Positions 32,992 to 64,000 of a DNA stretch of 64,000 nucleotides are shown here, piece after piece. Source of the DNA: Dentipellis sp. KUC8613 (lineage: Eukaryota; Basidiomycota; Agaricomycetes; Russulales; Hericiaceae); the NCBI GenBank assembly GCA_002286715.1, contig NSJX01000023.1, positions 130,524 to 194,523 on the forward strand, written 5' to 3'. Positions within the stretch are counted from its first letter, which is position 1. The number at the start of each line of letters is the position of its first letter. The notes beneath the pieces are model-generated. The model did not search any database. It was not told the DNA's origin and worked only from the letters and a program-made list of their open reading frames with translations. The translations under genes and the position numbers were made by a program.

Positions 32992-33695
32992 ATGAATGCA
33001 GAAGCTGCTAGTGCTGCAGTCGTGCCAGGAGCACCCTCTGCTACCGTGTCGGAGTCTTCTTCATCCAGTGAGTATCATGCTTCGTTCGTCATTTTGTCGT
33101 GTCCCTAAATTATGACTCTGCAGATAGTGACGCTTCCATCTCCGATTCAAGGGACCCCACGCGAGACGGATTCTTGGTATACAAGCGTATGCAGCGTGGA
33201 GAGATATCACCCGCAGAGGCTTCAGTGCTCATCAAGCAGCTGAGCGACGACCTGAAGGCCGAAAACGACCGACGATCCGCTCTAACTCAATACACGACGT
33301 CGTGGGAGGTTGACTGGATAGAGGAGCAGAGAAGACGCGGGTTCCGCGGGTTCAAGGTCATAACGACGCCTGAGCGGAAGAGCCCTTTAGCGATCGCGTC
33401 GCTGGCTTGCGAGCGCAGACAGCGGGGAGAGATCACGCAGGATGAATACATGGCGGTGCTCGAGCAGTGCAAACAGGAGATGAAGGCAAGGAGTGAACGG
33501 GAATTGTCGGTGCTTCGGCGCAGGCAAGCCGGCGAGGCTACTCGGAGGGATGTGGAGAAGGAGCTATACGGATATAGCGACGAGTACTTGGATGAGAAGG
33601 AACGAAGTGCTGAGACGGAAGCTTCCGCTCGCCGCGCAAATTTGGATCGCATGAGCGTTCGTGAGGTCAAATTTCGCAATCCCGGAGGCCACTGA
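32992..33695 (+). CDS. A1: small charged helical protein
   Basis: join(32992..33067, 33124..33695), 215 aa. First copy of a family I do not recognise. A short Ser/Ala-rich N-terminus is followed by repeated helical hairpins of the form R-G-E-I-(S/T)-x-x-E: MQRGEISPAEASVLIKQL and RQRGEITQDEYMAVLEQC. Between them lies SWEVDWIEEQRRRGFRGFKV, shared almost unchanged with A2. The C-terminus is charged and probably coiled. The RGEIT-E hairpin recalls SHOCT-like short helical domains, but I cannot show homology. The ATG at 32992 is chosen because the earlier in-frame ATG at 32953 lies inside a probable 5' UTR intron (GTAAGT at 32914). The stop is 101 bp from the stop of B1 on the other strand. Confidence 0.72.
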
Positions 33696-33796
33696 TCCAT
33701 GAAGTAGATCTATGCTACAATGTATGCTCCTTCTCCTTGAGTATGTGTAAAATACATGATGTGTGCAGTCGATACAAACAAGTCCGACCACGCGCG

Positions 33797-34661
33797 TCAC
33801 GTCTGCGAGGGTTCCGGATCCGTTTCGCCCTGCTGTTCGACTTTTTCCAAAAGTTCCTGGACAAGAGTCCTCAGCGCTTGCACTTCCTCTTCGCGTATGT
33901 TTTCCGCTTCTTCAGCCCACCGATTCAACAGAAGCAATGACACGTTGGCATTTTCTTTTACGTCTAGATCAGATTTCAGCTCGACGATATAGTCGTGCGC
34001 TGAACAAACATAAATATGAGATGAATGAAGATTACACATGCAGGGATCGTGCGCGCACCTTTCCTCATAGTTTCGACGAGGCCAGGAGGATCCAAAGTAG
34101 CACGCCTATCCTCTGGCAGGACATTGTTGAGCCTGATCCGATCGTCCACGTCTCTTCCCCGTTTCCTCTTTGCTTTCTCCGCCCTCTTCTTGCGTACCTC
34201 GTCTGTTATCTTGTGCTTCACCGTCGGCGCCGACGCGGCTCGAGCGGCTTTCTCCTGCGCCCGGGCGTGCGTTCTCGAAGCCGAGCCGCTAGCTACCTCA
34301 TTGTGAGACGAGCCTATCACGCCCTCGCTCAGTGTCTCTGGGGACGACACAGTGAATACTGGTTCTTCATAAGGGATGAACAAGGAAGGGCCTGGTTGGG
34401 ATGGAAAGAATGCTGCGTCTTGCGCGATATACAGTCCAGTCTGAGAGCTTGGCGCTACGGCTGAGGGCACTGTTTCTACATTTACTATGGGTGTCGGTGT
34501 CAGCTGCAATATTCTGAACACAATCTAGCAAACGTACCTAGAGGTTGCGAAGGCGCCGGCGGGCTTTGGATTGCGACATCTGTCTGCGAGCGCGAACGAG
34601 CAAGGTACCTATCCCGCAAGCTATCCCGGCTTCCCTTGCGCGCCTTCGACTTGCGAGACAT
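33797..34661 (-). CDS. B1: bHLH-zipper-like protein
   Basis: complement(join(33797..33999, 34059..34460, 34538..34661)), 242 aa. Exon 1 encodes a basic N-terminus (MSRKSKARKGSRDSLRDRYL, then ARSRSQ). Exon 2 is Ser/Pro-rich and ends with a basic stretch, KKRAEKAKRKRGRDVDDRIR, plus NNVLPEDR...PPGLVETMRK. Exon 3 continues the second helix (AHDYIVELKSDL) into a Leu-rich coiled coil. This is the order basic / helix 1 / loop / helix 2 / zipper, so DNA binding as a dimer is likely by analogy. The three-exon structure with phase-1 joins and a 402-nt middle exon is identical in B2 and B5. It is convergent with A1. Confidence 0.72.
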
Positions 34662-34704
34662 TGCGTGTTGGTATGCGTGTCCATACCATGAAGTCTCCTA
34701 CGAT

Positions 34705-34741
34705 CTTAAACCCTGCAGGTCCTTCCTTTTGCGAAACAAGA
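34705..34741 (-). promoter_or_regulatory. B1 promoter boxes
   Basis: Minus-strand TTTAAG (34705-34710) 44 bp before the ATG, and the plus-strand motif CGAAACAAGA at 34732-34741. Both are repeated at the same distances upstream of B2. Confidence 0.5.
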
Positions 34742-35247
34742 ACAGCGGGGAATGAGAGGATACAAGGCGGCTAACTGCTGTTGCATAGCGATCTTGAAGA
34801 GCATTGCAACCAAACATGCCCACTGTCAAGTCTCGAGGACTGTTACATAGAAATGCCGTCAGTCGGTGGACAAGGCTGCCCATTTGGGCACGGGCAACGT
34901 CGCTCGTTCGCGGGGAATTCCTGTTGCAGCGGTCTTCTAAATTGTCCAGGGTATCGGGAAAGCCTGATTGACATGAGGACAAAGTACAGAACGACATTTT
35001 CGGTTGGGTCGCCATGTCCGTCGCCCAAGTCGATATTTCAAGAACAAGGCCCGTACCTGCCCTTGTTCTGCAAATTGATTGACATTTCCTGCATGCAGGT
35101 TGTCGAGAGAAAGACAAGTTTTCAGTGGTAATAGATGGAAGATGTATAAGATGTCAAGGAGCTTGAAAGAGGGATGAGACTCGAGAGATGTTATGGAGAA
35201 GGTCGGACTCGAGCAAATCGTGGTCCTGGGGCAAGACTCGGAGAGGT

Positions 35248-35288
35248 CGCGCCACCGGGTCCCTGGACTGGACCCGTGGACCGGCGGC
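35248..35288. promoter_or_regulatory. Palindromic block, copy 1
   Basis: GCCACCGGGTCCCTGGACT followed by GTGGACCGGCGGC. The core GGTCCCTGGACT (35258-35269) is a near-palindrome, one base off the other copies. About 600 bp before the B1 ATG. Confidence 0.6.
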
Positions 35289-36159: not shown

Positions 36160-36850
36160 ATGGACTCAGAAATCATCAACATGGAAGATACGCCTAGCAT
36201 GGCTTCTGCTGCACCGGTAGGATCCAGTGAGTCTTTCGCTATGGTGTGCTTTCGTCCACTAGTGTTCAGACTTATTCGCAGGTGATGACGCATCGGACCT
36301 CGATGCGGTTCCCGACTCGCGGACCCCGGTGAAAGACGGCATGCTGATTTATAGTCGCATGCAGCGAGGAGAACTGTCATACAGCGAAGGGATGGTCCTT
36401 ATTGCGAAGATAAAGAGTAGGCTCGAGCATGAAGCCGCCCTGAACCAGTACACGAGGTCTTGGGAGGTAGACTGGATAGAAGAGCAGAAGAGCCGAGGGC
36501 TCACCGGCGTCAAAGTTATCGAAGTGCCCAAGCCGAACACCCCTCTGAAAGATGCAATGGATGCCTACAGATGCATGAAGCGGGGGGAGATCACAGGTGA
36601 CGAATGGTTAGCAGTGGCACAGCAGTCCATGCAGGAGATGAAGTCGAATATGGAACGAACGGTTTCGCAACGCCAACGTGTGGCATCGGGCGAGTCCGAT
36701 TGGGAAGACATACAAAGGGAAGACGGTTTCGGCGAGGAGTACATCGCAGAGATGAGGCGACATGCTCTGCGGAAGGGTCGCATCGTGAATGCGAACTTGC
36801 AATGTTTGCGCGAGCGTGTTACAAAGTTCCGCAACGCCAGAGGGTACTGA
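36160..36850 (+). CDS. A2: small charged helical protein
   Basis: join(36160..36226, 36282..36850), 211 aa. Closest to A1: the same short acidic first exon, then MQRGELSYSEGMVLIAKI, the shared block SWEVDWIEEQKSRGLTGVKV, MKRGEITGDEWLAVAQQSM, and a charged C-terminus ending in KFRNARGY (A1 ends KFRNPGGH). The protein is almost entirely predicted helix by composition, with no signal peptide or membrane segment. Function unknown. Its stop is 96 bp from the stop of B2 on the opposite strand. Confidence 0.72.
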
Positions 36851-36946: not shown

Positions 36947-37762
36947 TCATGGAGGAGCATTGAGAGAATCCAATGTCTGCTGAAGTTCTGCCATTTTGGC
37001 ATCATGTTCTCGTTGGCGCGTTTCTTCCGCTTGCTGGGCTAGATCGGTCAAAGCTTGAAGCGTCGAGTTTCTCCTCCTTTCCTCATCTAGCTCAGACTTC
37101 AGCTCTAGGATGTAGTTGCGCGCTGTAACGACAGGACAGTCATCAGGACAATAACGCGCACAGAACATGGAACAAGTTTGACCCACACTCTCTTATGACC
37201 TCCACCAAGCCGGGTGGATTTGCAGCGGCTTGCCTATCTTCCGGAAGGACACTGTTCAGGTTAATTCTATCCTCGACGTCCCTGTCTCGCTTTCTCTTTG
37301 CCTTTTCGGCTCTCTTCTTCTTGCGTATCTCATCCGACAGCTGCCGCCTGAGCCTTGGCGCTGTCGCCGCGCGGGCAGCCTTCTCCTGCGCTCGAGTATG
37401 GGAAGTCGAGGAGGTACCACTAATCGTTCCGTCATATGATGAGGACGTCGCCGTTCTGCTGAGAGCGGTCGGCTGGGAGGCAGTCAACGCTGAATCTCCG
37501 TAGGGGACACAAGAGGAAGGGCCTGGCATAGCATGCATTTCAAGGGTCGAAAAGCTAGGTGCTGCACCTGTGAGCATCATTTCCGACCCTGTCGGAGAGT
37601 CAACATTAACGACACGCAGAAGGGTAGTAAAACGACACTACCTGGAGGCTGCGAAGGAGCCGCTTGCTGCGATTCGACATCGGGCTGCGAACGCGAACGA
37701 GCGAGATATCTATCCCGCAAGCTATCCCGACTATGTTTTCGTACCTTTGACTTGCGAGACAT
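36947..37762 (-). CDS. B2: bHLH-zipper-like protein
   Basis: complement(join(36947..37122, 37187..37588, 37642..37762)), 232 aa. Exon 1 has the same basic start as B1 (MSRKSKVRKHSRDSLRDRYL). The basic region reads KKKRAEKAKRKRDRDVEDRI, then NLNSVLPEDR, PPGLVEVI and NYILELKSELDEE with a coiled C-terminus. The middle exon is 402 nt. At the exon 2-3 join the sequence is REs|RNY, where the other copies have RKA|xxY; the donor there is GTGGGT. Probably a dimeric DNA-binding regulator by analogy. Convergent with A2. Confidence 0.72.
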
Positions 37763-37805
37763 TGCGTGCTGGTACGCGTGTCCATGCCATGCACCCTCCT
37801 ACGAT

Positions 37806-38330: not shown

Positions 38331-38372
38331 CGCGCCACCGGGTCCCTGGACCGCTCCCATGGACCGGCGACG
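38331..38372. promoter_or_regulatory. Palindromic block, copy 2
   Basis: CGCGCCACCGGGTCCCTGGACC, then ATGGACCGGCGACG. The core GGTCCCTGGACC is at 38341-38352, 579 bp from the B2 ATG. Confidence 0.62.
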
Positions 38373-39147: not shown

Positions 39148-39529
39148 ATGGAGAACAGTAAGCCAGTATCTCACCTCTTGCCGAAGCTTATAACTCAATC
39201 CGGTTGCAGGTAATAAGTATCCCATCTCCAAGCACAACGCAGAAATCGACAAAATCGCACAAGAGTGCCTTGCAGCTCTGCGGCGCAGAGACAAGGGCGA
39301 GATTACCCAGGAAGAGTTCCTCCGCATAGCCTACGACTGTGACGCGCGGACGCGAGCACGCGAAGCATCTACGAGGCTCCTATGTCAGCGGATCGCCAGA
39401 GGCGATGTCGACCTGGAGGAATTCATGAAGGAGTATGGGTATAGCGACGAGGATTGGGAGAAAATGCGGCCTGGAATAGAGAAGCACGTCAATGCTCTCT
39501 TTGATAGTACGAGGCGTGGCCGGGCTTGA
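39148..39529 (+). CDS. A3: short helical protein
   Basis: join(39148..39157, 39210..39529), 109 aa. The first exon is only 10 nt (MEN plus one base). Short form of the family: IDKIAQECLAALRRRDKGEI, then TQEEFLRIAYDCDAR, RIARGDVDLEEFMKEYGYSD and EDWEKMRPGIEKH. The two R-G-(E/D)-(I/V)-x-x-x-E-(E)-F units are about 40 residues apart. It lacks the VDWIEEQ block of A1 and A2. The usual B partner is missing downstream; A4 follows in the same direction. Confidence 0.7.
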
Positions 39530-39895: not shown

Positions 39896-40394
39896 ATGAT
39901 ACCCATGTCTTCAGCCATGAACACCGGAGACGATCGTCACCTTCTCGATGGGGGCTCTCGGAGTCCATCTGCATCAGCGACTGTGTCCGCCGAGGTGCAA
40001 ACCGGTACGTATCGCAAAGCAGCTGCCAGTGTGATCGCATGCTGATCTTGTTCCAGACAACACTCTTCCGCTTTCCAAACATGACGCTGCAATAGCCAAA
40101 ATCAATCAAGACTGCGCTTCGGCGTTCTATCGCATGAACAGAGGAGAAATTACTCACAGCGAGTTCATGCGTATAGCCAACGATTGCCGTGAACGTGCAC
40201 AGGCTCAACGAGAGATGACCAGGCTATTGTGCGAGCGGGCGTGGAATGGTGAAGTGACTCGGGAAGAATTCGACAGAAAGGTCGGATACAGTGAAGAGGA
40301 CTGGAGGAAAGTAGAACCCGAGCTAGAGAAACGTTTGCAAGCACGGAGAGCGGAGTTCAATGCTGCTCACGCTGAAGCCCTACCGAAGCCATAG
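39896..40394 (+). CDS. A4: short helical protein
   Basis: join(39896..40004, 40057..40394), 148 aa. First exon Ser-rich. The second exon begins LPLSKHDAAIAKINQDCASA, then MNRGEITHSEFMRIANDCRE, ARERAWNGEV-type second unit (ERAWNGEVTREEFDRKVGYS) and EEDWRKVEPELEKR. The ATG was chosen for its position 43 bp after a TATAAAG box. Charged, soluble, helical; function unknown. Its stop is 80 bp from the B4 stop. Confidence 0.7.
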
Positions 40395-40474: not shown

Positions 40475-41456
40475 CTACTGATATCTCGTCACCCGAGTTC
40501 TCAGTCGTTCAATCTCGTCCTGCAAGCAAATCAACTTCTCCGCAATCGCAACACCTTCATAAGGCGATTCTTGGCTCCCCGTCTTCAAGATTGAGGCAAA
40601 CATGTTGTTAGTTTCCTCGAGTTCAGAAATTCGTTTCTGTGCCGCTTCAAGATCGCCTTGAACCTCGGGAATATACTCAGTAGCTGCATAAACCATTCAA
40701 CCACTCTGTCGAAGACGACGAACAAAGACGTACCTTTCCTCATGACCTCGACTAAGCCCGGCGGGTTCGAGATAGTTCGTCTACCTACCGGAAGCACATT
40801 GTTGAGCTGGACCCGGTCGTTCACGTCTCTGTCCCGCTTCCTCTGGGCCTTGTCCGCCTTGTTCTTTCTACGCACATCTTCTGACACTCTGTGTCTTCTT
40901 ACTCTTGGCGACAACGCAGCTCGGGCAGCCTTCTCATGCGCTCCCTTGAGGATCTTGGGCACAGGCGGAAGATTAGACGTAGACAGAGGACTAGGCGCTG
41001 ACGGAGGACTGGGTGCGGATGGAAGCCTTTGCGCAGGCGAAGAGCCGGGCGCGGGAAGAGGGCTGGAGACGGGTGGAGGACTAGGCGTGATCTCACTGAG
41101 TGCCGAGAGTGGCGAGGACCCCCCGAACAGTGCCGGGGACAGACGGGTGTGCACAGAACCTGCTTGGGGATTGAGCGAAGAGGAATCTGACGATTGCGAG
41201 TTATAGGCATCATCTTGCACGATGCGCGTCTCAGAGGCCGGCAAACTGGAGGGTTTGTTCGAGTGTGGCGCGGGGGACTCTGCTATATGTGTGATTGTCA
41301 GTCATAATAGCTGAAGCAGAGCGAAAGGACGATACCTGAACGCCTGAAAGATACCGCCACCTCTGCTAGAAGATCGAGGTCCGTCCGGACTCGCTTGGCG
41401 GAACAATTTCGCTCAGCGTCCCGAGCGCCCTTGGTTGACTGCGACAAGCGAGGCAT
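40475..41456 (-). CDS. B4: bHLH-zipper-like protein
   Basis: complement(join(40475..40683, 40734..41279, 41336..41456)), 291 aa, the longest B copy. Exon 2 carries an expanded Ser/Pro-rich tract with repeats of the type PSAPSPPSAPSP. The basic region is RRKNKADKAQRKRDRDVNDR, then VQLNNVLPVGRR, PPGLVEVMRK|ATEYIPEVQGDLE and a coiled coil. Exon phases are as in the other copies. Likely DNA-binding by analogy. Convergent with A4. Confidence 0.72.
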
Positions 41457-41890: not shown

Positions 41891-41937
41891 CCGCGCTACC
41901 GGGTCCCTGGACCATCAAATGGACACGTGGACCGGCA
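41891..41937. promoter_or_regulatory. Palindromic block, copy 3
   Basis: CCGCGCTACCGGGTCCCTGG with core GGTCCCTGGACC at 41902-41913, then GGACACGTGGACCGGC, which includes the E-box CACGTG, a common bHLH site. 446 bp from the B4 ATG. Confidence 0.62.
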
Positions 41938-42598: not shown

Positions 42599-43078
42599 AT
42601 GTCTTCAAGTGAGCACGAACAAGAATCTTCCATCTTCGTGTTAGTGCCCGTCCCTGCGCAGAGCGGTAAGCGATCAACACCATTTTCAAACTATTCAAGA
42701 GACGGGGATGCTGATTGCATGGTAGGCGACAGGAGTCCGCAGTCAAAATTTGACACTGCGAGGCTCGCGATCAGAAAAGAATGCTCTGAGGCACTGGAAC
42801 GCAAGATCAGGAAAGAGATCACGCACGAAGATTTCATGCAGATAGCCAATGATTGCGTTGAACGGGATCGACTTCAGAGAGAAGCTGCCGACAAACTGGA
42901 CGAGCGAGCGAGAAGGGGCGAAATCAGTCGCGCAGAATTTAGGAAGGAGAGCGGAATCAGCGATGATGATTGGGAGAAGATCACGCCAGAAATTAGGAGG
43001 CATTTTGAAGTTATGGGGGCTTATCACAGGCGGAATCGTGCCCAAGGTCTTCGCAGCCAACGTTTGGGAGGGCGTTGA
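42599..43078 (+). CDS. A5: short helical protein
   Basis: join(42599..42665, 42726..43078), 139 aa. The 60-nt intron is a multiple of three without a stop, so retention would also give an open frame. Family blocks: SKFDTARLAIRKECSEALER, IRKEITHEDFMQIANDCVER, RARRGEISRAEFRKESGISD and DDWEKITPEIRRHFE. In the first unit the usual RGEI reads RKEI. The C-terminus is basic. Function unknown. Its stop is 81 bp from the B5 stop. Confidence 0.7.
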   Translation: MSSSEHEQESSIFVLVPVPAQSGKRSTPFSNYSRDGDADCMVGDRSPQSKFDTARLAIRKECSEALERKIRKEITHEDFMQIANDCVERDRLQREAADKLDERARRGEISRAEFRKESGISDDDWEKITPEIRRHFEVMGAYHRRNRAQGLRSQRLGGR

Positions 43079-45426: not shown

Positions 45427-45465
45427 CGCGCCACCGCCAGGTCCCTGGACCTGTGGACCGGCGAC
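45427..45465. promoter_or_regulatory. Palindromic block, copy 4
   Basis: GCGCGCCACCGCCAGGTCCC with core GGTCCCTGGACC at 45440-45451, then TGTGGACCGGCGACG and a GATTGGCC (CCAAT-type) sequence. Confidence 0.62.
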
Positions 45466-47304: not shown

Positions 47305-47308
47305 GCGG
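47305..47308. repeat. Target-site duplication, left copy
   Basis: GCGG directly before the LTR; the same four bases follow the right LTR at 61691-61694. Confidence 0.7.
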
Positions 47309-50550: not shown

Positions 50551-50737
50551 GGCGGTCGCACAGAAACTAAGCGCTCATGGTTACCTTCTTATGATTCGGC
50601 GAAAAGGTCTGCTAATTTATTACGCCTCACTTCGTGTGACAGTGTCATATTATGGCTCCATGCTCTGGATCTCGTCTTATTATTTGTTCCAGCAATCGAG
50701 TTTTCTATTGATACTCCTTTCAACGCTGATCATGGCT

Positions 50738-53700: not shown

Positions 53701-53944
53701 GAAATAGTTTTTCTTCCTCGGGCCATAGAAATTTTTCTGCATTTATTCCTAATTTATCCATTTGCTCCTGAGTCATTCGATCGTCGGGTATAAAAGGCGG
53801 CGGGTGAAAGGGAAGAGGTTCCAGTGACCTCAGCGGGTCCTCAGGAATTTTTCGCTGCACGCGCGCAGCTTCTGGGAAGGTTCCAGCAACGGGCCGGACC
53901 TTCTTATCGACGCGCTTGTATGCCGTGAAACAATAGTAAACCAT
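50738..53944 (-). CDS. Pol: reverse transcriptase, RNase H, integrase
   Basis: 1068 aa without stops. The RT palm starts about residue 150 (SSWFCVRKKNGKLRIVHDLQ) and has the active-site loop NIFIDDLG near residue 268 (F in place of the more usual Y of YxDD, also common). RNase H residues are seen in VILSVDSSYIAVGF, LELFGLF and YVEVDAKYI. The integrase has an HHCC zinc finger (HDDLGHRG...CHQC) and the catalytic triad VYIDVMH, TTDNGPE, GVVERGH, with 34 residues between the second Asp and Glu. A GPY/F module (RYRGPYEVV) follows. The tail is acidic, and I see no chromodomain. The ORF has its own ATG and is separated from Gag-protease by about 0.73 kb, so it is not a simple frameshift fusion. Confidence 0.95.
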   Translation of the reverse strand: MVYYCFTAYKRVDKKVRPVAGTFPEAARVQRKIPEDPLRSLEPLPFHPPPFIPDDRMTQEQMDKLGINAEKFLWPEEEKLFQHIMYLNREALAFAETERGTLKESYFSPYIIPTVPHAPWTSKNIPIPPGLKEQVIELLKEKIAAGVYEPSQSAYCSSWFCVRKKNGKLRIVHDLQPLNKVTIRDAGLPPIVDDFVEPFAGRACSTVFDLFWGFDARKVHPDSRDLTAFRTPLGMLRITSLPMGFTNSPAEFQNCMVFILQPEIPDPANIFIDDLGIRGPVTTYPNADGEPETLEQNQNIRRFIWEHALDVHRIMHRVKCGGGTFAPNKAQIAKPDVVIVGQKCTPEGRVPEDKKVEKILAWPSLTNVTEVRGFLGLCGTVRIWIPNYSKMARPLTELIRQDVEFVWDDRRSQAFQALKEVITKAPALRSIDYKSDQPVILSVDSSYIAVGFILAQLDELGRRRPARYGSLPMSPVEARYSQPKLELFGLFRALRHFSLYIIGVRNFYVEVDAKYIKGMLNAPDIQPNAAVNRWIQGILMYDFTLVHVPAERFRGPDALSRRQPASDEEAENFDEDDWLDNIALYLGYYPPPIKRRLSSAQPSNPLPQHSAVVLALTLSKADQGLMDVYKFLTTLDYPSPDMTQRQQKRFLKKVSQHFVKAGILFRRNGGRPPLKVILQPSHRQDIITSAHDDLGHRGEVAVFEMIRTRFFWPHMRTDVRHHVSSCHQCQIRSTKKLEIPLIVSTPSTIFTKVYIDVMHMPKVAGYTHIVAARDDLSRASEGRALKHVTAKALANFFWEQLYCRYGAIGQVTTDNGPEVQGAFSELMDRLGIPQVAISPYNSKANGVVERGHFIIREAIVKSCEHQMQKWPGKVQEAFFADKVTTSQVTGFSPYYLLHGVHPVLPFDLTEATFLVEGFKSGMSHAELLALRIRQLEKRAEDLENASYKLIQYQIHSKEEFERKFKSRLSQKEFQSGELVLVRNSMVEKSLNRKTKPRYRGPYEVVRRTKGGSYILQELSGVVMRDAVAAFRLIPYIARNEAVLKRLAEEVFEESSDEESGSDDREDTD

Positions 53945-54670
53945 AGTAACAAGTAAGTAACTAGTATTTGACTTCAGAATAATATTTTCGACTTATTCGC
54001 GATTTTATTCGATTTTAAACTCGATTTTTAGTTGTAAAAGCGCCAGAGGACTGCAGGAATACCTCAAGAATCAGCCGAGTCTGTCCTCGGCTCCCGCAGG
54101 AAAAATTTCGATGTAAATCCAGCATAATATTCAAGGTAAGTACTACCCTAAATACAAGAGACTATGCCAAAGAAATATCGAAATTTTTATGGCAGGGCAG
54201 CTGTCCAAGTGACTAGGAGGGAGAGGGGACGTCGCAGGGATCGTAAGGGCATCATATTCGAGTGGTACAACGTGTTTTTGCAAGGGGGGGGATGAGTATT
54301 GGAGAAAAAGGTGAAAATCACGATTTTAAATCGAATTTTGAAGCAATCTATGGTTAGGATAGATACTGGGAGTCATAGACGACGAAGCGCGAGTAGGATA
54401 CATGAAAGAAGAATGGAACATAGCTTGTTTTCGAAGATTCGAATATTTTTGCGATTTTTGAAGTGATTTTTGTCGAGTTTTGTGAGGAGAAAGTCGAGAG
54501 AGAAGGTTTGCATGGATAGGACATGGGTTCCGAGTCGTTGAAGCGAGAATTGGGGCGAGTTTAAGTCATTCAGAATGTAGAATATACTGCATGTGGGGTA
54601 GGATCAGTTCCGCGGGGAACTTTTCGAATGAAACTCGGGCATACCATGTGTGAGCGCGAGCGGAATCCGT
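53945..54670. other. Gag-Pol spacer of the retrotransposon
   Basis: AT-rich, with runs like GATTTTATTCGATTTTAAAC and no long ORF. How Pol is expressed across it is unclear: splicing, a separate promoter or reinitiation. Confidence 0.55.
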
Positions 54671-57600
54671 CTAAAACTGCGGGATAGGGTCGATCCGGAG
54701 GTACTCGCAGTCCGCGCGAAGACGTTCTTCGAGCCGGCGTGTGTCTTGGATGAAGTCGATGAGGCGTGAGGTGGTTTCGTCGGGGCGGTCGAAGATGCGG
54801 GAGGCGACGAGCTGGCGCAGGAGGTGGTCGTCGCCGAAGCGAATTTTGAGGAGGCCTTCGATTTCCCCAGCGAGCTCGTTCTCCTTCCAGAGGCGCAGGA
54901 GAAGGGAGAGGACATGGAGGAACCGGGCCTCGGACGGCCGGTACAGCGCGGGTGAGTAGACAGGACAGAACTTGGGGCATACCTCGTGCCGCCAGTCCTC
55001 CCGCTCCTGGTCGGTGAACACGTCGCTGTGCGTCTCGAGGGGCTCCGGGGCAAGCTTGAGGAACGAGTCAGTACTCTGCTGCATGTCGCGCGCGAAAACA
55101 TTCGAGCGGTTGATCCAAAAATAGCTGACAGTGAGGGTCGAAGAGAGGAGGCACGCGCGCGGAAGGAATAGCGGCAGGATGGGGCGATGCTTGCGGAATG
55201 GAAGGTGTTTGTAACGAGGAGGGGGTGCTTCAGAGGCTTGAATGGGAGGGGTAATCGGAAGTGAGACCATGCATTCGGAGAGCGGGGTAAAGGCGAACAT
55301 ACTTTCGAGTTGATCTATGGACTTGCTACGCTGCCAGTCCGTGAGGCTCGCGAGGTATGGGTGCAGCTCGAGCGCTGCCCCGGTCGGCTCGTCCTCCGCT
55401 ACTACCGCGCCGCTCGACTTGTCTTTGATCTGGCTGCCGTCGCGCTGGAACCGGCTCGTGATGAGCTCGTCGGCTTCGCATAGAGGGAGGAAAGGCGAGA
55501 CGGAAATCCCCTGCGCTGGCGTCGGCGGCGGTTTGTCGGAAGGCGGTAGCGCGAGCGGTGGGATATCAGCCGCAGGCGTGAATGTCCTCGTCGGCGTCGG
55601 TGAGTCGGGCGGCCAGTCGAGATCTGGCATGCTGGAGTCGGTGGACATGGACTTGACGTCGTCGTCCTCGTCCTCGTCCTCGATTTTGGCTGCTAAGGCA
55701 TCGGGGGATGTGGTGAGAAAGGATGGGGGTGCGCAGGTGACAGGTGGCTGGCGCGGGTCGCATGGATTCGGTGGTGCCGAGCCGGTGAGCTTGATGGTCG
55801 TGGTAGAGTCGCGCGGAGGAGCGGGGGTGTAGGCTTCGCGTGTGAGTGCTGAATAGAAGACGGCGGCGGTGGGTCGTGGAGTGTCTGCACGGAGCGGGGT
55901 CACGAGACAAGGGCCGCGCGCGCTGAGTTCGGGCATCGCGCTGATGAGCGGGCTGTCGACGTCCATCTGAGTGTCTATCCTCTTTTTCTTCGGCTTCCAG
56001 GCTTCTTTGTCATCGCTTGAACTGATCTCGTCTCTCTCCGAGTCCTCCTCCATCGGCGAGTCCGTATCCTCCTCCTCCTTCTTCGGCTTCTCGCGCTCCC
56101 GGTCCCCCAAGTCCGTTAGCGAGTCTTGTGCTTTACGTTTGAATATAATATGATTTTTTGTTGCTGTGACAGGCGGCTGAGTTAGCGGCGAGGGTATGTG
56201 CGTGAAGGCCTTGAGATTGCACATACCTGGTTTTCGTTTGAGCCTGCAAGCCGTAGCGTTCGTAAGATTGAGTGCTGGCGGCGCGAGCGTCAGAAGGTGG
56301 GACTGATCGGTGAGAGAGGGCGGTTTGTATGGGCGGCGCAGGCGTGGCGATTGCGGCGGCGAGCGGCGGAAAAGTGGCATGGACTCGGTGGCGGCGACAC
56401 GAGGGGTACGGTCGGCGAAGATGGGGAGGGAGTCGTTAGCTGCTGGCGGAATGTGACGCTCGTACTCGCGGATGATGGGCCCGTCTTCGGATTGTTCTTC
56501 GACAATTCGCGGTGCTTCGGTCGCATTTGCACCGAAAGGTCGAGGTCCGCCTGCGCAAAAGGGAGGTTCCGTGGAAACGGAGGCGAAATGCGTATTTGAA
56601 TCGAAGGTTCGTACGAGAGCTGGGCCGTGTCGGATGTCGCCTTCACGACCAGGTCGGATTGTAATGTGTGTTGCGTTGAGGAACAAACAGTCTCGGAACG
56701 GGATGCCGGAGGCGTCGTCGATGCCGGTGCCGAGCTCGAGGCCATCGCGCGTGCTGAGGAAGTGGTCGGCGAAGTAGCCCTGACGAGAGAGCGCAGAGCG
56801 CTCGCTCGTCGCGAACCGAAGACGCTCGGGAGTCGAAACGATGTGAGCAAGAAGAGGATGGGGGTCAGGAATGCGACGGCGTTCTTCAGCAAGTGGAAGA
56901 TAGTCGAATTCAATGGAGCTAATAGTACTTTGGGGTAGATATGGTGAGCTCATGCAAAGGGAAGAGAAGGTAAGGAACGTAGCGTCGTGTCCCTCGCCCT
57001 TATATACTAGCTTTTTCCTTCGAATTCTCCCTCTTCTTCGCGTCGATTCTTGAGCATTCGAACCTTCGAGGTTCTTCTTCTTCTTGAGATCGACCAATAA
57101 CGCGTTGAGGAAGGTGCTGCGAGCGTGCGGGAGGACTGAGGAAGGTGGAGGAACGGTCGTGTGTGGCTTGGGCGCAAAGGGATGACGCGGCGCCTCATTG
57201 AGTTGCGTGATCGAGATCCGATCACTGTCCCCGGTGCGGGGTGATCGATCTTCATTCTCGGATCTGCTTCCGCCGGTAAGATCTGCCTCCGGCGCTTCCT
57301 CGGGCGCTTCTTCATGACTCATGCCACTGACGTTGTTACGTCTTCGCTCAATTAGCAAGTTGACTTGCGCTCGCTGCAAGCCTTCGACGTAGTGGCATGC
57401 CGCCGTACTAGGTGCGTGATTGTGTACTACGAATTCAAACCTTGGCTTACTGACATCCCATGGGTCTTTTATTACTAGATATGTTCCATCGGGCCGTTCG
57501 TCAATCGAGACGAAGTTCTGCCGCTGCCATGGGCGCCCGAGAAGGAGATCAAAAGGTACGTCGTCGCCGACATAGACGTCTGCGCGCGTGTTGATGGTCC

Positions 57601-60583
57601 CCACCCCAAACTCCGCGTCTTGCACGAGGCCGGTGAGCACAGCGCTCTGCCCGTTTGCGTCGGTCATGTCGATGGAACGGGTCACATCTACTGGTACGCC
57701 TCCCATCTTCTCTCTCCATACCTTTCTTCTAACCACGTTCAACTGGGAGCCGGTGTCCATAATCGCCAGGATGTTATGGTCGCCGCTCCTAACATAGAAT
57801 TGTATAAGATCTCCTTTCGCGCGCTCCACGCCTCCCGCAGGTCCAATGACTCGCGTGACGTTCTGGAGCGCGCTCAAGTTCTTATCCTCGCGCGCCCGAG
57901 ATTCCGGGGCCAACGGTTTCAAGGGGGATGGAAATGCTGCATACCAGGGGCTCGTGCTAGGCTCGGATGCCGCTGAGGGTGCTGGGGATGGGCTCGATCG
58001 CGCCGGGGGTGCCGAGGTACGTACATTCTCTTTTTCGAATTCGAGGCGGGCTGGCGCGGACGCGATGCGAGCGGGCCTAGCTGCTGACTGAATTGGTTGC
58101 AGGTTTGCTGGCGTCGAGGCTGAACGAGCCGCCGTATGACCTACGAGGACCAGTGCAGCGGTTGCGCTAGCAGGTACGTTCTCTTTAGGCGATCTCAACT
58201 TCATGCTCTCACCTAATATGTTCGAGATCTCTTTCGACAGGCCCAAGACTTCGCCGACTTTCAACTGCACCGGCTCATCAAGAATCTTCGCTAGGATTCG
58301 CGTTGGTTCCACTATCGCAGACAAGGCCGATCGGCGCGGCGCTCTCTTGTTCTCTGCACTACCCGGTACGTTCTTGTTTGTTCGATCCTTCCGAGATGCT
58401 TCTGGGCTAACATCCTCCATTTCCACATCTTCTAGAAAATCTGCATCGTCTTCTGGATCGTATGCTCGCGGCTGCGGGTCAATCGGGTGAAACGGGGGGT
58501 CTTCGGCAGGTACGGCAGGTACGTCTGCTGTTTTCTTCTTTTCTTTTGCCTTCCCTGACGTTCTTTCTCTAGTTCTAGGGTGTCCTTTTATTTCGTTAGG
58601 GATACGCGCCGCCGTCGCGGGTCGCGTGCCCTGCTCGAACGGGTCCGCCGGCTCATTTTCGGGTTCCAGGCGAGTCGTCGCGCGGCTGCGCGGCGCTCTC
58701 TGAACCGTTACTTCTTTTCGAACGACGGGGCGCTTTGCACGAGGGACGTGCACGCCATCGAACACCTCCTTGTAGCCGGGCGTCGCCCTCTGCTTGGGCT
58801 TCTCGGTGCGTACTACATTTAATGCGTATGTTTCATCTTTTGAATTTGAATCCGAGTCGTCGCTAGGTACTGCAAAACGAACCACTCGCTCCCCCTCCTG
58901 CTCTTCCGAGCTGGAGGCTACCTCCCCCGGCACTGCGCGCACCATGAACAAATGCGACGCTGCCGTAGGTATCGGGGTCGAGGGACGTTCTCGGTTGACG
59001 GCGTCTACAAGGCTCTCATTGCCGAGGCGACGGATCCAGTACCCGTTCGTATATACGTACCTACCTCGCTCGTCTTGTTTTATCTCCCCTGCTGCTACTA
59101 ACTTCTGTAATTCTGGGCAGGTATTCATCGTATGCCCTTCTTTATTACAGCCATAGCACGTGAAAGACCTCGGCGGCGGACGATTTCCATCGGGTGATCT
59201 TGCCGTCACACCGGGCGATACTGATACGGTGTTAGTATTACCTGTAGGCCTTGCAGGTAACAGATGTGGGGGAGGATCTCTTGGCCTATTTACCATAGAA
59301 TTCCCAGATGCTACATAACTTCTAGATTGACTTTGTAATTCAGGTGCTCTGACTACTTTAGATACAAATTCATCTTTTTTGATTGCTCGATAATATACTA
59401 GCCCATATTGTGGGTCTCTTGGGTTCATAGAATTAAGCTGCTGAATCATTTCTTCCACTTCATGCTGTGTGCTTTTTATATTTGTCCCCTGGTGTCCAAG
59501 ACTGGGGTGAACTTTCACCATTTCAGGTTCCTCGTCTCTTGCGAAATGAACTTTTTGGCTCTGGCGCTGCTTGGCCAAGGCACTTTCTGTTAATTGTTTA
59601 CGCAGTTTTATTTGACGTAGCCTCTCATCTTCATCTGAGTCATTGGAATCATCATCAGAATCTTGCTTTCCTGGCCATTCCTTGTCATCCGAGTCCGATT
59701 CATCGAAATCGACATCAAATTTGTTTCGCTGTAGGATGCTCTCCGCTATTTCATTTACTTCTTCCATAGAGAAAGGGTGGGATCTGTTATAGGTGGGATG
59801 CAATGCATACAGCCTATTTTCAATTTTGTCCCTTAGTCGATAGCCAATACCGCCCCAAAAATATGAAGCTTCTTCCTCCTCGCTGATCTTATTAGTTGAC
59901 CGCAGCCATCCGGCGATGCTCAGGAAACCCCTTGCATACTTCCGCCAGGCTTGGAGGGTAGCCATCTTCTTTTCCCTAGTGGCTTTTATATATTTGGTCA
60001 AGTCGCGCTTCAAATACCGCTTGGTACATCTGTCGGCGTCAAAGTACTTTAGCAAATCCTTCTTCAGCTGGTCCCAATCAGGGTTCTGGTAGCTTTCCAG
60101 TGCCTGGATGAAGTCCGCTGTTTTACGTGAGCAATATTGAGTAATGGTTTTGCACTTCGACTCATCGTCAAGCACGTTGTGCTGCTGGCACAAGGCCTCA
60201 TACGTCAGAATGAATCTTTCAATCTGATCATACTCTCCCTTGAATTTTAATGGAGCATATTTTGAGTTGGGAAGAGGCATCATAAGAGCTGGGATAATAT
60301 TAGGAGGGGGTGCTGCGATGTTGACGACAGGAGGTGGTGGTGGCGGAGGACGTGAATACATCTGGTGAAGCGTCGATCTTTGTTTAACTGGTGCAGCCAC
60401 TGGCGCGGCAATATTCTGTGGCTGTGCGGTCCTAGGTGATGCTGACGATCGAGAAGGAAGAGGCGGCGTCGATGGGAAGAAGAATGGTGGGATGATCGGC
60501 GATGAACTAGTCGACATGGATGGAGGGGTTGTGGCAGGAGCTGGGATGGTCGACCAACTGTCGTCCAAGTCAAGGAGATCCAT
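54671..60583 (-). CDS. Gag-protease polyprotein (1970 aa)
   Basis: One intact ORF. The Pro/Ser-rich N-terminus is followed by a retrotransposon Gag capsid-like region (about residues 105-260, with FILTYEALCQQHNVLDD and WDQLKKDLLKYFDADRCTKR). A CCHC zinc knuckle CYGCNKEGHTMNTC lies near residue 473, and an aspartic protease with LAIMDTGSQLNVV near residue 936 and LLGRPWQRQN after it. Roughly 900 further residues have no known domain; they are Ser/Pro/acidic-rich with a few conserved-looking blocks (TFLNALLVDLKKKK, TIRPGREGDIRHGPALVRTF). The ATG lies 49 nt after the primer-binding site. The size is well above usual fungal Gag-PR proteins. Confidence 0.92.
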   Translation of the reverse strand: MDLLDLDDSWSTIPAPATTPPSMSTSSSPIIPPFFFPSTPPLPSRSSASPRTAQPQNIAAPVAAPVKQRSTLHQMYSRPPPPPPPVVNIAAPPPNIIPALMMPLPNSKYAPLKFKGEYDQIERFILTYEALCQQHNVLDDESKCKTITQYCSRKTADFIQALESYQNPDWDQLKKDLLKYFDADRCTKRYLKRDLTKYIKATREKKMATLQAWRKYARGFLSIAGWLRSTNKISEEEEASYFWGGIGYRLRDKIENRLYALHPTYNRSHPFSMEEVNEIAESILQRNKFDVDFDESDSDDKEWPGKQDSDDDSNDSDEDERLRQIKLRKQLTESALAKQRQSQKVHFARDEEPEMVKVHPSLGHQGTNIKSTQHEVEEMIQQLNSMNPRDPQYGLVYYRAIKKDEFVSKVVRAPELQSQSRSYVASGNSMVNRPRDPPPHLLPARPTGNTNTVSVSPGVTARSPDGNRPPPRSFTCYGCNKEGHTMNTCPELQKLVAAGEIKQDERGRYVYTNGYWIRRLGNESLVDAVNRERPSTPIPTAASHLFMVRAVPGEVASSSEEQEGERVVRFAVPSDDSDSNSKDETYALNVVRTEKPKQRATPGYKEVFDGVHVPRAKRPVVRKEVTVQRAPRSRATTRLEPENEPADPFEQGTRPATAARIPNEIKGHPRTRERTSGKAKEKKKTADVPAVPAEDPPFHPIDPQPRAYDPEDDADFLEDVEMEDVSPEASRKDRTNKNVPGSAENKRAPRRSALSAIVEPTRILAKILDEPVQLKVGEVLGLSKEISNILGESMKLRSPKENVPASATAALVLVGHTAARSASTPANLQPIQSAARPARIASAPARLEFEKENVRTSAPPARSSPSPAPSAASEPSTSPWYAAFPSPLKPLAPESRAREDKNLSALQNVTRVIGPAGGVERAKGDLIQFYVRSGDHNILAIMDTGSQLNVVRRKVWREKMGGVPVDVTRSIDMTDANGQSAVLTGLVQDAEFGVGTINTRADVYVGDDVPFDLLLGRPWQRQNFVSIDERPDGTYLVIKDPWDVSKPRFEFVVHNHAPSTAACHYVEGLQRAQVNLLIERRRNNVSGMSHEEAPEEAPEADLTGGSRSENEDRSPRTGDSDRISITQLNEAPRHPFAPKPHTTVPPPSSVLPHARSTFLNALLVDLKKKKNLEGSNAQESTRRRGRIRRKKLVYKGEGHDATFLTFSSLCMSSPYLPQSTISSIEFDYLPLAEERRRIPDPHPLLAHIVSTPERLRFATSERSALSRQGYFADHFLSTRDGLELGTGIDDASGIPFRDCLFLNATHITIRPGREGDIRHGPALVRTFDSNTHFASVSTEPPFCAGGPRPFGANATEAPRIVEEQSEDGPIIREYERHIPPAANDSLPIFADRTPRVAATESMPLFRRSPPQSPRLRRPYKPPSLTDQSHLLTLAPPALNLTNATACRLKRKPGMCNLKAFTHIPSPLTQPPVTATKNHIIFKRKAQDSLTDLGDREREKPKKEEEDTDSPMEEDSERDEISSSDDKEAWKPKKKRIDTQMDVDSPLISAMPELSARGPCLVTPLRADTPRPTAAVFYSALTREAYTPAPPRDSTTTIKLTGSAPPNPCDPRQPPVTCAPPSFLTTSPDALAAKIEDEDEDDDVKSMSTDSSMPDLDWPPDSPTPTRTFTPAADIPPLALPPSDKPPPTPAQGISVSPFLPLCEADELITSRFQRDGSQIKDKSSGAVVAEDEPTGAALELHPYLASLTDWQRSKSIDQLESMFAFTPLSECMVSLPITPPIQASEAPPPRYKHLPFRKHRPILPLFLPRACLLSSTLTVSYFWINRSNVFARDMQQSTDSFLKLAPEPLETHSDVFTDQEREDWRHEVCPKFCPVYSPALYRPSEARFLHVLSLLLRLWKENELAGEIEGLLKIRFGDDHLLRQLVASRIFDRPDETTSRLIDFIQDTRRLEERLRADCEYLRIDPIPQF

Positions 60584-60631
60584 GAGAGTGTACGCTTACC
60601 ACAGGTGAGGCTGTGCTGAACAGATTCTCCC

Positions 60632-60649
60632 CCTCGCGGTGGGCTCCAG
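60632..60649 (-). other. Primer-binding site, tRNA-Lys(CTT)
   Basis: Minus strand TGGAGCCCACCGCGAGGG, two bases from the 5' LTR. It is complementary to the last 18 nt (with CCA) of the tRNA-Lys encoded at 18243-18344, including its unusual T discriminator; position 19 no longer pairs. Confidence 0.9.
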
Positions 60650-60650
60650 A

Positions 60651-61690
60651 TGTCGGGTCGGCGGCGTGTACGAAACTTGTCAGTTAGGGATAAGCAACAA
60701 GCACGCGCCCTGAATAGAGTAGGTTTTCCACTTTCCCGGTCTACTNNNNNNNNNNNNNNNNNNNNNNNNNNNNNNNNNNNNNNNNNNNNNNNNNNNNNNN
60801 NNNNNNNNNNNNNNNNNNNNNNNNNNNNNNNNNNNNNNNNNNNNNNNNNNNNNNNNNNNNNNNNNNNNNNNNNNNNNNNNNNNNNNNNNNNNNNNNNNNN
60901 NNNNNNNNNNNNNNNNNNNNNNNNNNNNNNNNNNNNNNNNNNNNNNNNNNNNNNNNNNNNNNNNNNNNNNNNNNNNNNNNNNNNNNNNNNNNNNNNNNNN
61001 NNNNNNNNNNNNNNNNNNNNNNNNNNNNNNNNNNNNNNNNNNNNNNNNNNNNNNNNNNNNNNNNNNNNNNNNNNNNNNNNNNNNNNNNNNNNNNNNNNNN
61101 NNNNNNNNNNNNNNNNNNNNNNNNNNNNNNNNNNNNNNNNNNNNNNNNNNNNNNNNNNNNNNNNNNNNNNNNNNNNNNNNNNNNNNNNNNNNNNNNNNNN
61201 NNNNNNNNNNNNNNNNNNNNNNNNNNNNNNNNNNNNNNNNNNNNNNNNNNNNNNNNNNNNNNNNNNNNNNNNNNNNNNNNNNNNNNNNNNNNNNNNNNNN
61301 NNNNNNNNNNNNNNNNNNNNNNNNNNNNNNNNNNNNNNNNNNNNNNNNNNNNNNNNNNNNNNNNNNNNNNNNNNNNNNNNNNNNNNNNNNNNNNNNNNNN
61401 NNNNNNNNNNNNNNNNNNNNNNNNNNNNNNNNNNNNNNNNNNNNNNNNNNNNNNNNNNNNNNNNNNNNNNNNNNNNNNNNNNNNNNNNNNNNNNNNNNNN
61501 NNNNNNNNNNNNNNNNNNNNNNNNNNNNNNNNNNNNNNNNNNNNNNNNNNNNNNNNNNNNNNNNNNNNNNNNNNNNNNNNNNNNNNNNNNNNNNNTTAAC
61601 TTCTACTATTTAAGCATGCCCTCAATGCCATTATATGTAGAACATTGTACCTGACCTGGTTTTTATCCCAACCAATTTTTGGTTGCGACA
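60651..61690 (-). repeat. LTR (5' LTR of the minus-strand element)
   Basis: Starts TGTCGGGTCGG and ends TTGGTTGCGACA on the plus strand, identical to the left LTR where both are readable. Contains an N gap. Confidence 0.88.
60746..61595. other. Assembly gap (850 N)
   Basis: Run of N inside the right LTR. Confidence 0.99.
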
Positions 61691-61694
61691 GCGG
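61691..61694. repeat. Target-site duplication, right copy
   Basis: GCGG, matching 47305-47308. Confidence 0.7.
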
Positions 61695-61953
61695 AAGGAA
61701 CGAATTGCTATAGACGGGGTAAATAGCCGAGGGAGGAGCGCCCGATCCTACGGCGTAACAGATCTACACGTCAGTATGATAGTAAAGAATCAATTTCAAT
61801 GTCGGAACTCGTACCTCGGGCATGCGAAGGTCCAGCTGCAGCGGGGTGCGACACAGCACTTAGCTGCGCGCGCGAGAGCGAACGCGTGACGACGCAGTCT
61901 CGCACAATGCTCTGGCTCTTTTTGCGTACTATCTTCTGTGACTTCTTTTGCAT
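61691..61953 (-). pseudogene. B6 5' part: exon 1 and start of exon 2
   Basis: Exon 1 (61815-61953) encodes a basic start (MQKKSQKIVRKKSQSIVRDC, then VVTRSLSRAQLSAVS), matching B5 in position and phase. After the GTACGA...CCGTAG intron the exon 2 start (61691-61747) reads GSGAPPSAIYPVYSNSFLP and is then cut by the LTR. The remainder of the gene is at 46755-47304, 14.4 kb away. Unless the element is spliced out, the product would be truncated before the DNA-binding region. Confidence 0.8.
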
Positions 61954-61991
61954 GGTCCGTTGGCATCTATGTCGTGCCGTTCATTTGGGAC

Positions 61992-62027
61992 TTATACAGG
62001 CCAGCCCTTCCATAATCGAAACAAGAG
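61992..62027 (-). promoter_or_regulatory. B6 promoter boxes
   Basis: Minus-strand TATAAG at 61992-61997, 39 bp before the ATG, and CGAAACAAGA at 62018-62027, as upstream of B1 and B2. Confidence 0.55.
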
Positions 62028-62490
62028 CCAGACTGTTAGAAGAAGGGCCTAGTATAGAGGACCTGATTGCTCCTGTTGCTTAGCTACCTTCACGTTGCAT
62101 TCCGGTGATACACAGGTGTTCTCATATTATCATTTGCCTATAATTATCAGTGAAGAAACAAGGATGCCCATCTGGGCAACGTGGACGGCCCAACGAGTGG
62201 AGATGTCTGTAGGGTCAGCCAATACACCGGGGCATAGGTAACGAACGCATGAACGGCAATGAGACACAGTTCGGTGGATGTTTCGACTCTTTGAGAACAA
62301 GGGGGCGTTCATAACCTCGAATATCTTGTATGGAACAAGATGTTGGTCCAGGACAGTTCGGTATGCATCGGATAGAATTCAAACGTAACATGGCAAGTAG
62401 AATCAGGGTGCCATGTACACATGAACTTGGCTGAGGCGAGTGTGGTGAACGTATGAAAGCGAGTGACCTTCGTGACTGGCAGGCGTAGAA

Positions 62491-62530
62491 CCGCGCCACA
62501 GCCAGGTCCCTGGACCTATAGACCAGCTCC
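62491..62530. promoter_or_regulatory. Palindromic block, copy 5
   Basis: CCGCGCCACAGCCAGGTCCC with core GGTCCCTGGACC at 62505-62516, then a diverged second half and GATTGGCC. 552 bp from the B6 ATG. Confidence 0.6.
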
Positions 62531-63312
62531 GATTGGCCGGGCCTTCGCCGCGACCGACATGGCCAACTCTTTTCTTGCTCCAAGCGTGTACTCTGCAATT
62601 CCTCTGTCTCGATGAGGCCTTTGCTTTCGATACTATCTCTTCTGTCATCATACGAATTCTGCGCGATATTCACCCGCTGAATGGCAAGTTCAAGACGCAG
62701 TGCTCGGCTCTGGACCCACACACCCACCGTTGGATCGCCATTGTCCTCACACATCGCCCGACGGCGGGAAATTTGTCTGTTTTTCCGAGACGTAGTGGCT
62801 CGAAGGAGATCGAGGAGAATTAGACAGCTGAGCTGCCCGCTCAAGCATGGCTAATAGCTCATTGGTCGGAGATGAAGCAGGAAAGGTCGCTACCGGTGTA
62901 AGCACATTGTTCGCAATCTCGTCGATCTTATTTTGCTTCGTCGCCCTATGGCGACTACGCAGCCACACCAATAATTAGCCAGGACGAATGCTCGAAGGTT
63001 TACCACACGAAATCGAAGAGATCCTGCGCAACTGCGTAGCAAACAATGACGACTGCAAGCCACAATATGCATCGAACGTCAGATGGCGACCATGACCGCT
63101 GCTTCAGCAAAAGGTTCATCTGTTTCTTCTACTTACGCTATTCTCTGGCATCCATCCCATTCGTCAACAACACAAGATGATAGTAGCCCTCCAGGTCTGT
63201 CTGCTATACAGTGATTTCTTGGCCACCAGTGTATGTATTCGATTAGTAGCACAAGAAATACATCTTTATTCGTAATCGAAACCCGTAGGAATATCGCCCG
63301 TCGTACATAGCT

Positions 63313-64000
63313 CTAAGCTGCAGCTATTTGAGCCCTCAATTGCCGTATCTCCCCTTGCAAATGCGTGAATAGGTTGGCTGTTTGGAAGCCTTCGTCATGG
63401 ATCCGCTGCACGTCCTCGGCTCCCGTGCCGAGAATCATATTCAATACACCATTGGTCTCGTACGCCAATCCGAGGGCGTTCTGGAGGCTCACGGCATGCT
63501 GCCGTGCCCATTCTAGATCGCTTCGCACCTCAGGGATATATTCTATAGCTACAGGAAAGGTTCAGTCACATTATCGAAGGTGCTGAAGAAATTGTAACAC
63601 GCACCCTTCCTCATGACTTCAACCAGACCCGGTCGACTCGATTGCACGCGCCAGTCCTCCGGCAGGACGTTGTTCAGCGCGACCCGGTCGTCTACATCAC
63701 GGTCGCGCTTCCTTTGCGACTTCTCGACCCTCTTTCCCCGGCGTTCTTCATCTGTCAGCGAGCGTTTCAATCTCGGGTTTGACGCCGCCTGGGCAGCCTT
63801 CTGTTCCCGAGTGGGCGCCGCAGCGTAGGTATCACCAGCTTGCCCGCCGCGTGCGGATGTTGAGGGTGCTGGAGCCGAGGACGAGGCAATCGGCATCGGC
63901 GTCGGTTGTCCATACCGTAAAAACGAGGGAGGGACCGGCGGAGGAAATTGCGGATTGTTATGCACGGAGTGTAGCCCGGGGGTTGGATATCCAGGCGGCA
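63313..64000 (-). CDS. B7: bHLH-zipper-like protein, 5' end outside window
   Basis: complement(join(63313..63548, 63605..>64000)). The visible part of exon 2 is Pro-rich, then has the basic region ERRGKRVEKSQRKRDRDVDD, RVALNNVLPEDWR, RPGLVEVMRK|AIEYIPEVRSDLE and a long coiled coil. If exon 2 has the 402 nt of B1, B2 and B5 it ends about 6 nt beyond the window, so exon 1 is missing only because of the window edge. It aligns with B6 across the retrotransposon site (PPSFLRYGQ versus NSFLP|HDHQ), which supports the B6 reconstruction. No A gene lies beside it within the window. Confidence 0.7.

Follow-up and report, generated by a model that had tools for sequence, protein, structure and literature searches.

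Within a 64,000-nucleotide stretch of the genome of the wood-rotting fungus Dentipellis sp. KUC8613 (Russulales, Hericiaceae), hereafter the window (C88:130524-194523 of an assembly of 34.1 Mb in 171 contigs), we found a tandem array in which two small gene types repeatedly face each other tail to tail: A, predicted to encode a helical protein, and B, predicted to encode a protein that resembles basic helix-loop-helix leucine-zipper (bHLH-Zip) factors. The array is more than a chance resemblance, because the A copies align as one family and the B copies as another, and the ratio of nonsynonymous to synonymous differences (pN/pS) stays below 1 in every comparison. We tentatively read the A/B unit as a two-gene regulatory module in which A may tune or restrain a dimerising B regulator, a reading that falls somewhat short of probable and that we favor over passive linkage, a conflict module, a recognition system, and antisense control.

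A first-pass annotation of the window had listed A frames and B genes, six of each, all of which are present, and the array that it described is real but larger than it supposed. Genome searches with single proteins carried the array ~24 kb beyond the window, to ~C88:218.5 kb, for a full span of ~163.5-218.5 kb; the array loci delivered in this way agree base for base where they overlap and were aligned onto the window together with one 10-kb stretch. Over this span there are 15 A loci (A1-A6, A8-A12, A14-A17) and 15 B loci (B1, B2, B4-B9, B11-B17; numbers are skipped where a partner is missing), which make up 13 A/B pairs, every one of them tail to tail. The order of the copies, previously thought to be fixed, is not: pairs 8 and 11 are inverted, each as a whole unit, A3 and A10 stand without a B, and B7 and B13 stand without an A. 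A search for partner remnants beside these four orphans gave scattered matches only, the best candidate being a 28-residue match beside B13 (like A4, E 0.010) that we took for chance. B9 is degenerate: its exon 1 is frameshifted and stops interrupt its exon 3. B13 survives in part and also looks degenerate. The stop-to-stop gaps within pairs are short, namely 101, 96, 80, 81, 48, 63, 106, 56, 6, and 135 bp for pairs 1, 2, 4, 5, 8, 11, 14, 15, 16, and 17, respectively, so that over 11 pairs (these ten with unbroken B, plus B6 at 100 bp) they range from 6 to 135 bp; this set leaves out B12 and the degenerate B9, whose gap is 246 bp.

The expectation that A and B homologues co-occur as neighbors was borne out elsewhere in the genome. 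Weak A matches on contigs C100, C110, and C2 were found facing bHLH-like frames, and a genome search with one divergent A and one divergent B returned, outside C88, 20 A matches with E up to 2e-7 and 12 B matches with E up to 5e-7; for each of the 12 B, an A lies on its 3' side in the opposite strand, tail to tail. These divergent homologues occupy at least two further genome regions. Unlinked A or B genes elsewhere in the genome were considered and rejected, as the searches outside C88 gave the opposite. C100 begins with a near-exact repeat of the sequence that ends C110 (L057/L058 are identical over the last 2.4 kb, and L059/L060 agree at 99.1%), and these contig ends are therefore probably adjacent or haplotype copies; C100:0-12 kb matches C110:225-236.8 kb, which would connect two portions of a second cluster of A/B genes. 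Owing to this overlap, the 12/12 pairing amounts to 10/10 when counted once, with two of the ten B degenerate. Together with a third-type pair at C100:76.5 kb (L069, with P0023 as its B), the genome holds at least 24 tail-to-tail A/B pairs (13 on C88, these 10, and the L069 pair), and a possible further pair at C100:74.3 kb (A at C100:74252, with an exon-3-like B recognized by eye) stands outside this count. In profile comparisons, array and divergent A matched at 97.5% probability (E 5.4e-12 over 105 columns) and array and divergent B at 96.9% (E 1.5e-10), so that both families are homologous across the groups. The pairing persists between types that are ~20-30% identical. Remote B-like matches were also seen, at E 0.05-0.5 on C139, C128, C114, C110:143740, C1, and C45 and at E 0.2-0.6 on C139 and C22.

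Part of the array is also present in D. fragilis, where a 22,970-bp contig carries the B proteins g6474, g6475, g6476, and g6480 and the A proteins g6469 and g6477. The best matches are g6480 with B4 (65%), g6476 with B5 (49%), g6475 with B7 (75%), g6474 with B9 (73% over 139 residues; the score of B16 was one bit higher, over a longer alignment), and g6469 with A16 (77% over 82 residues); g6477 has no clear counterpart. By gene number, the matched genes follow the same order in both genomes, and the array therefore seems to predate the divergence of the two Dentipellis species. Outside Dentipellis, no named protein was found at E 0.01 with array A and B queries or at E 0.1 with a divergent B query, in a word-based search that scored the 7,994 and 7,990 candidates sharing most words in the two B searches and 3,621 for the array A, and that may, given this choice of candidates, miss relatives in other genera.

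Both families look constrained. For the exon-2 codons of A, pN/pS was below 1 in 105 of 105 comparisons (median 0.49, maximum 0.86), and for those of B in 91 of 91 (median 0.50, maximum 0.67; the set includes the broken B6 and B9 and leaves out B13). Synonymous sites are near saturation in most pairs, and these values therefore indicate constraint and not exact rates. Pairwise distances of A and B were correlated with r = 0.29 (p 0.015) over 13 pairs, rising to 0.46 (p 0.002) without two long A, and with r = 0.26-0.48 (p 0.001-0.014) when the B core was used, the nearest relative being the same in 7 of 13. B8 and B11 (C88 ~195.8-196.8 and 202.6-204.0 kb, beyond the window) differ by a synonymous distance (dS) of 0.19 versus 0.78 for their partners A8 and A11; since some B copies are far closer to each other than their A partners are, the alignments suggest exchange among B copies. 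The proposal that pairs are inherited as units hence survives in part: the two inverted pairs moved whole, but the weak correlation and the B8/B11 mismatch mean that the units are kept together while their sequence history is not strictly shared.

The A protein appears to be SHOCT-like. Five of the six window A proteins matched SHOCT (PF09851) at E <1, the best at 7.2e-5, and the score of A1, 22.5 bits, did not reach the curated cut-off of 27. SHOCT is described in PMC3581485 as a pair of helices spanning ~30 residues, in which a glycine and a glutamate are conserved, mostly single and C-terminal and mostly bacterial, for which binding to other proteins or nucleic acid was suggested and an oligomerisation test was unsupportive. 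Across our A alignments, the glycine and the glutamate between two helices are nearly invariant, as in SHOCT, whereas two or more hairpins run along the protein in place of a single C-terminal unit. A predicted model places helices at residues 38-58, 64-93, 99-106, and 110-140, of which the first hairpin is the best. Foldseek with this model returned nothing at E 0.001, and a PDB search with A was led by a de novo TIM barrel (E 8e-5), no single stretch of which passed by itself; the other rows were weaker.

For B, an AlphaFold2 monomer model of B7 (P0002), built from ten B sequences, predicts a helix at 136-163 (basic region plus helix 1), a loop, and a long helix at 178-261, i.e., the secondary structure of a bHLH protein with a long second helix. 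The mean predicted local distance difference test score (pLDDT) is 62, with an N-terminal part of low confidence, and ten-residue pLDDT means within the helices are mostly 75-93, the long helix dipping to 68. A search of the PDB with a B core profile gave 16 matches at E up to 10, of which 13 are bHLH chains (best USF, E 0.021); three printed alignments are in register across the bHLH region, and most rows for Max span the second helix only. UniRef gives the name "BHLH domain-containing protein" to g4437 (P0024), a divergent B from D. fragilis whose top PDB match is MITF (E 0.19), and the divergent B of L069, in our own gene model, matched Pfam HLH (PF00010) at E 0.015, with 15.6 bits versus a cut-off of 20.7. 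The predicted helices, the PDB profile matches, and the UniRef label agree with the earlier description of B as bHLH-zipper-like. The accompanying statement that neither gene belongs to a recognized family is partly wrong, given the sub-threshold SHOCT matches of A and the BHLH label of a divergent B; an NCBIfam scan gave nothing above any cut-off. In the second B type the basic region is less basic, and LNxxLP and a KYI or EYI motif are retained. E-box-binding bHLH proteins share a basic-region glutamate; at this position, all 14 array B that were aligned carry A or S (register from the USF alignment) and P0024 carries Q (register from the MITF alignment).

The array also has a recurrent upstream element, the near-palindromic GGTCCCTGGAC, which occurs 5 times in the window versus 0.9 expected when one mismatch is allowed. 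Exact copies number 20 genome-wide, 11 of them in the array, and with at most one mismatch there are 15 array sites, each upstream of at least one array gene, at 446-633 bp from the nearest start for 14 sites and at 720 bp for one (the starts of B6 and A16 used for these distances were read or estimated by us). The 40 bases that follow contain a further GGACC at 12 of the 15 sites and ATTGG (CCAAT-type) at 9. The element was not found upstream of A1 or the degenerate B9, nor between A3 and A4, in an array scan allowing one mismatch.

Taking these findings together, we propose that B may be a nuclear, DNA-binding, dimerising bHLH-Zip-like protein that would have lost the glutamate used to read an E-box, and that A may be a small protein of SHOCT-like hairpins that would bind or otherwise tune its own B, most likely as a brake. 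The units would have multiplied through tandem duplication, with inversions, losses, and some exchange between B copies, and the array would likely be co-regulated via the common GGTCCCTGGAC-containing element in the upstream gaps, an element that could possibly be read by the B proteins themselves and would then provide autoregulation. The direction assigned to the control, with A as brake or antidote, fits the pattern of loss: 12 A loci lack a working B (contig overlaps counted once) versus one intact B, B7, that lacks an A. In the array, these A are A3, A10, A6 (whose B is broken by a transposon), and A9 (whose B is degenerate); on C110, those at 214603 and 233927 face degenerate B; and a further six (C110:213579, C110:234947, C100:10925, C100:12184, C100:68827, and C2:805335) had no B match in the search, an assignment that relies on the B search result with surroundings that were partly read.

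A number of observations weigh against this reading. The 13 bHLH chains represent six proteins (USF, USF2, SREBP-1A, MyoD, Myc, and Max, with eight entries for Max). No array B matched Pfam HLH, and the annotated divergent B P0023 and P0024 had no match at E 0.1; hhalign of the array B with three bHLH pieces of the same genome gave 1%; and Foldseek with the B model returned no bHLH, its two matches lying at E 8.6 and 9.2, with a VIA-align comparison of the model that covered those two chains alone. Each bHLH match of B is thus weak taken alone. Because Pfam, hhalign, and Foldseek were negative and the E-box glutamate is replaced, we call B bHLH-Zip-like rather than bHLH: from alignments and the predicted model it looks like a diverged relative of the bHLH-Zip kind that lacks the glutamate of E-box binders, and is not a proven bHLH. 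Further, the A and B distance matrices agree weakly, B7 is intact without an A, the bias in loss could reflect B as a bigger mutational target or undetected B remnants, and GGTCCCTGGAC could be kept by duplication rather than function.

The weak co-variation and the existence of orphans would also fit an ordinary tandem expansion, in which A and B are neighbors by descent and act alone, B for example as a stress or developmental regulator. Co-duplication alone would hold such neighbors together. Passive linkage of this kind sits poorly with a pairing and orientation that outlast deep divergence and inversion, and with the fact that nearly all B have an A, and we regard it as plainly unlikely. 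The loss pattern, with A lacking a working B common (12 loci) and the reverse found once, can equally be read as a selfish or conflict module, in which an unpaired B would be harmful (e.g., in spores or a heterokaryon), A would be its antidote, and arrays would grow by drive or defense; the tight pairing, the confinement of matches to Dentipellis, and the birth and death of copies point the same way. However, B resembles a transcription factor, not a pore-former or an enzyme, and many copies are constrained at once; we regard a conflict module as decidedly unlikely.

A combinatorial self/non-self or mating-like recognition system, where diverged and possibly dimerising B (and A) variants would act as allele-specific partners, like homeodomain pairs, is suggested by the many diverged copies of a regulator with fixed partners and by a layout that recalls homeodomain loci. 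Matches to the genes that define such loci lie elsewhere, in agreement with the statement of the first-pass annotation that A and B are neither homeodomain nor pheromone genes. Matches to the homeobox family PF05920 were found at C95:562-571 kb (three) and at C88:37948-38055 (KN type, ~126 kb left of the array), and matches to STE3 (PF02076) at C1:2.33-2.35 Mb only; within the array there was no homeodomain gene by PF05920 (PF00046 was not searched) and no STE3. A canonical mating-type locus was hence rejected by content, as judged from PF05920 and PF02076. Moreover, the gene order is common to D. fragilis, and the same divergent pair on two contigs differs at 9 of 429 bases in B exon 2 and at 0 in A, a comparison that may be one of overlapping contigs. 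Recognition appears, on balance, a shade more improbable than conflict. Least of all do we expect an antisense device, in which overlapping 3' ends would let A and B transcripts limit each other: two 3' untranslated regions are likely longer than the 6-135 bp stop-to-stop gaps of the 11 measured pairs, but A has a conserved protein sequence of its own, and in compact fungal genomes convergent genes often lie close together. We regard this device as highly improbable.

Regulation of B by A stays our favored reading. A more far-reaching form of it, unlikely but not strikingly so, is that the units represent an undescribed fungal two-component module, in which a bHLH-like regulator would be checked by a dedicated SHOCT-like partner, and that this module has grown into arrays in the service of conflict (antidote/effector) or of recognition (combinatorial partner choice); such a system would differ from homeodomain, pheromone, and NLR-type loci. 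At least 24 copies of a tail-to-tail pair in one genome, linked through divergence, inversion, and loss, provide a natural experiment on gene linkage. If A restrains B, mushrooms would have paired regulators of a new kind, for which cognate and non-cognate combinations are available, and SHOCT-like and bHLH-like proteins would extend to a lineage-limited expansion that may play a role in development, mating, or conflict.

The gene structures given by the first-pass annotation were largely recovered, except that the B junctions are uncertain. A genes have a single phase-1 intron close to the 5' end. B genes have three exons, whose junctions we picked by likeness among copies and which are uncertain by a few residues because a junction-ranking script put others first for B1, B2, and B5; the 402-nt middle exon claimed for these three, with an in-frame acceptor, is possible in each, and B1 fits other acceptors too. 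Among database proteins, P0002 agrees with B7 and P0004 equals B5 save for two residues at the first junction, and others differ more: P0009 begins inside exon 2 of B2, P0008 (B8) lacks exon 3, and P0017 is a shortened A6. B6, one of the six B genes listed, is cut in exon 2 by a long terminal repeat (LTR) retrotransposon with GCGG at both flanks and a reverse-transcriptase-like frame on the minus strand (by eye). The readable parts of its LTRs, 95 and 39 bases long, match exactly between the two ends, and the insertion is therefore probably recent.

Table 1. Array genes and associated elements in the window (positions count from the first base of the window).
Feature	Position	Strand	Details
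A1	32992..33695	+	215 aa, SHOCT-like repeats; intron 33068-33123; SHOCT E 9.4e-5, below cut-off
B1	33797..34661	-	bHLH-Zip-like, 3 exons; tail-to-tail with A1, gap 101 bp
GGTCCCTGGAC element	35258..35268	+	head-to-head gap B1/A2
A2	36160..36850	+	gene model
B2	36947..37762	-	tail-to-tail with A2, gap 96 bp; part annotated as P0009
GGTCCCTGGAC element	38341..38351	+	gap B2/A3
A3	39148..39529	+	direct reading; B partner not found
A4	39905..40394	+	gene model
B4	40475..41456	-	tail-to-tail with A4, gap 80 bp; 65% identical to D. fragilis g6480
GGTCCCTGGAC element	41902..41912	+	gap B4/A5
A5	42599..43078	+	gene model; annotated start 42428 (P0016)
B5	43160..44009	-	P0004; tail-to-tail with A5, gap 81 bp
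GGTCCCTGGAC element	45440..45450	+	gap B5/A6
A6	46160..46654	+	gene model
B6, 3' part	46755..47308	-	exon 3 and part of exon 2; tail-to-tail with A6, gap 100 bp
LTR retrotransposon	47309..61690	-	inserted in B6 exon 2
B6, 5' part	61691..61954	-	exon 1, intron 1, start of exon 2; direct reading
GGTCCCTGGAC element	62505..62515	+	upstream of B6
B7	63313..64000	-	P0002, runs on to 64213; intact, no A neighbor; 75% identical to D. fragilis g6475

Two further observations concern the surroundings of these genes. Between B5 and A6, at window positions 44579-45409, lies an inverted repeat with 171-nt arms that are 98% complementary and 489 nt apart, which looks like a small foldback element or one of the miniature inverted-repeat transposable element (MITE) type. 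To the left of the array, on the minus strand, are frames for a haem peroxidase (window 4828-5499) and a cytochrome P450 (8762-9319), perhaps oxylipin-type enzymes.

We found no account of the A/B array in the titles and abstract openings of the papers listed on Dentipellis, KUC8613, SHOCT, mushroom bHLH, Hericium mating type, convergent helix-loop-helix pairs, and somatic incompatibility, and, in the searches made, neither a known family nor a paper that describes the tail-to-tail module or its arrays; its parts do resemble known classes. Like the SHOCT domain, A has two helices around a G-[DE]-[IV]-[STP]-x-x-[EQ] turn, whereas its hairpin is repeated and forms most of the protein, with a score below the Pfam cut-off. 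In common with bHLH-leucine-zipper factors (USF, SREBP, Max/Myc, and MITF), to which most PDB profile matches belong, B has a predicted basic region and helix 1, a loop, and a helix 2 continuing into a long helix, with the motif LP...YI in matching order; it departs from them in a loop that holds a conserved PG, in the missing Pfam HLH match of the array B, and in the A or S that replaces the glutamate. At the level of the pair, toxin-antitoxin and spore-killer systems offer one parallel, since A and B are linked and the loss pattern fits a restrained active partner, although Pfam scans show no toxin-like domain in A or B. The HD1/HD2 mating-type loci of mushrooms offer another: they hold several adjacent pairs of dimerising regulators in diverged copies, with the two genes of a pair divergent in orientation. 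The A/B array likewise has several adjacent diverged pairs, but these lack a homeodomain by PF05920 and are convergent.

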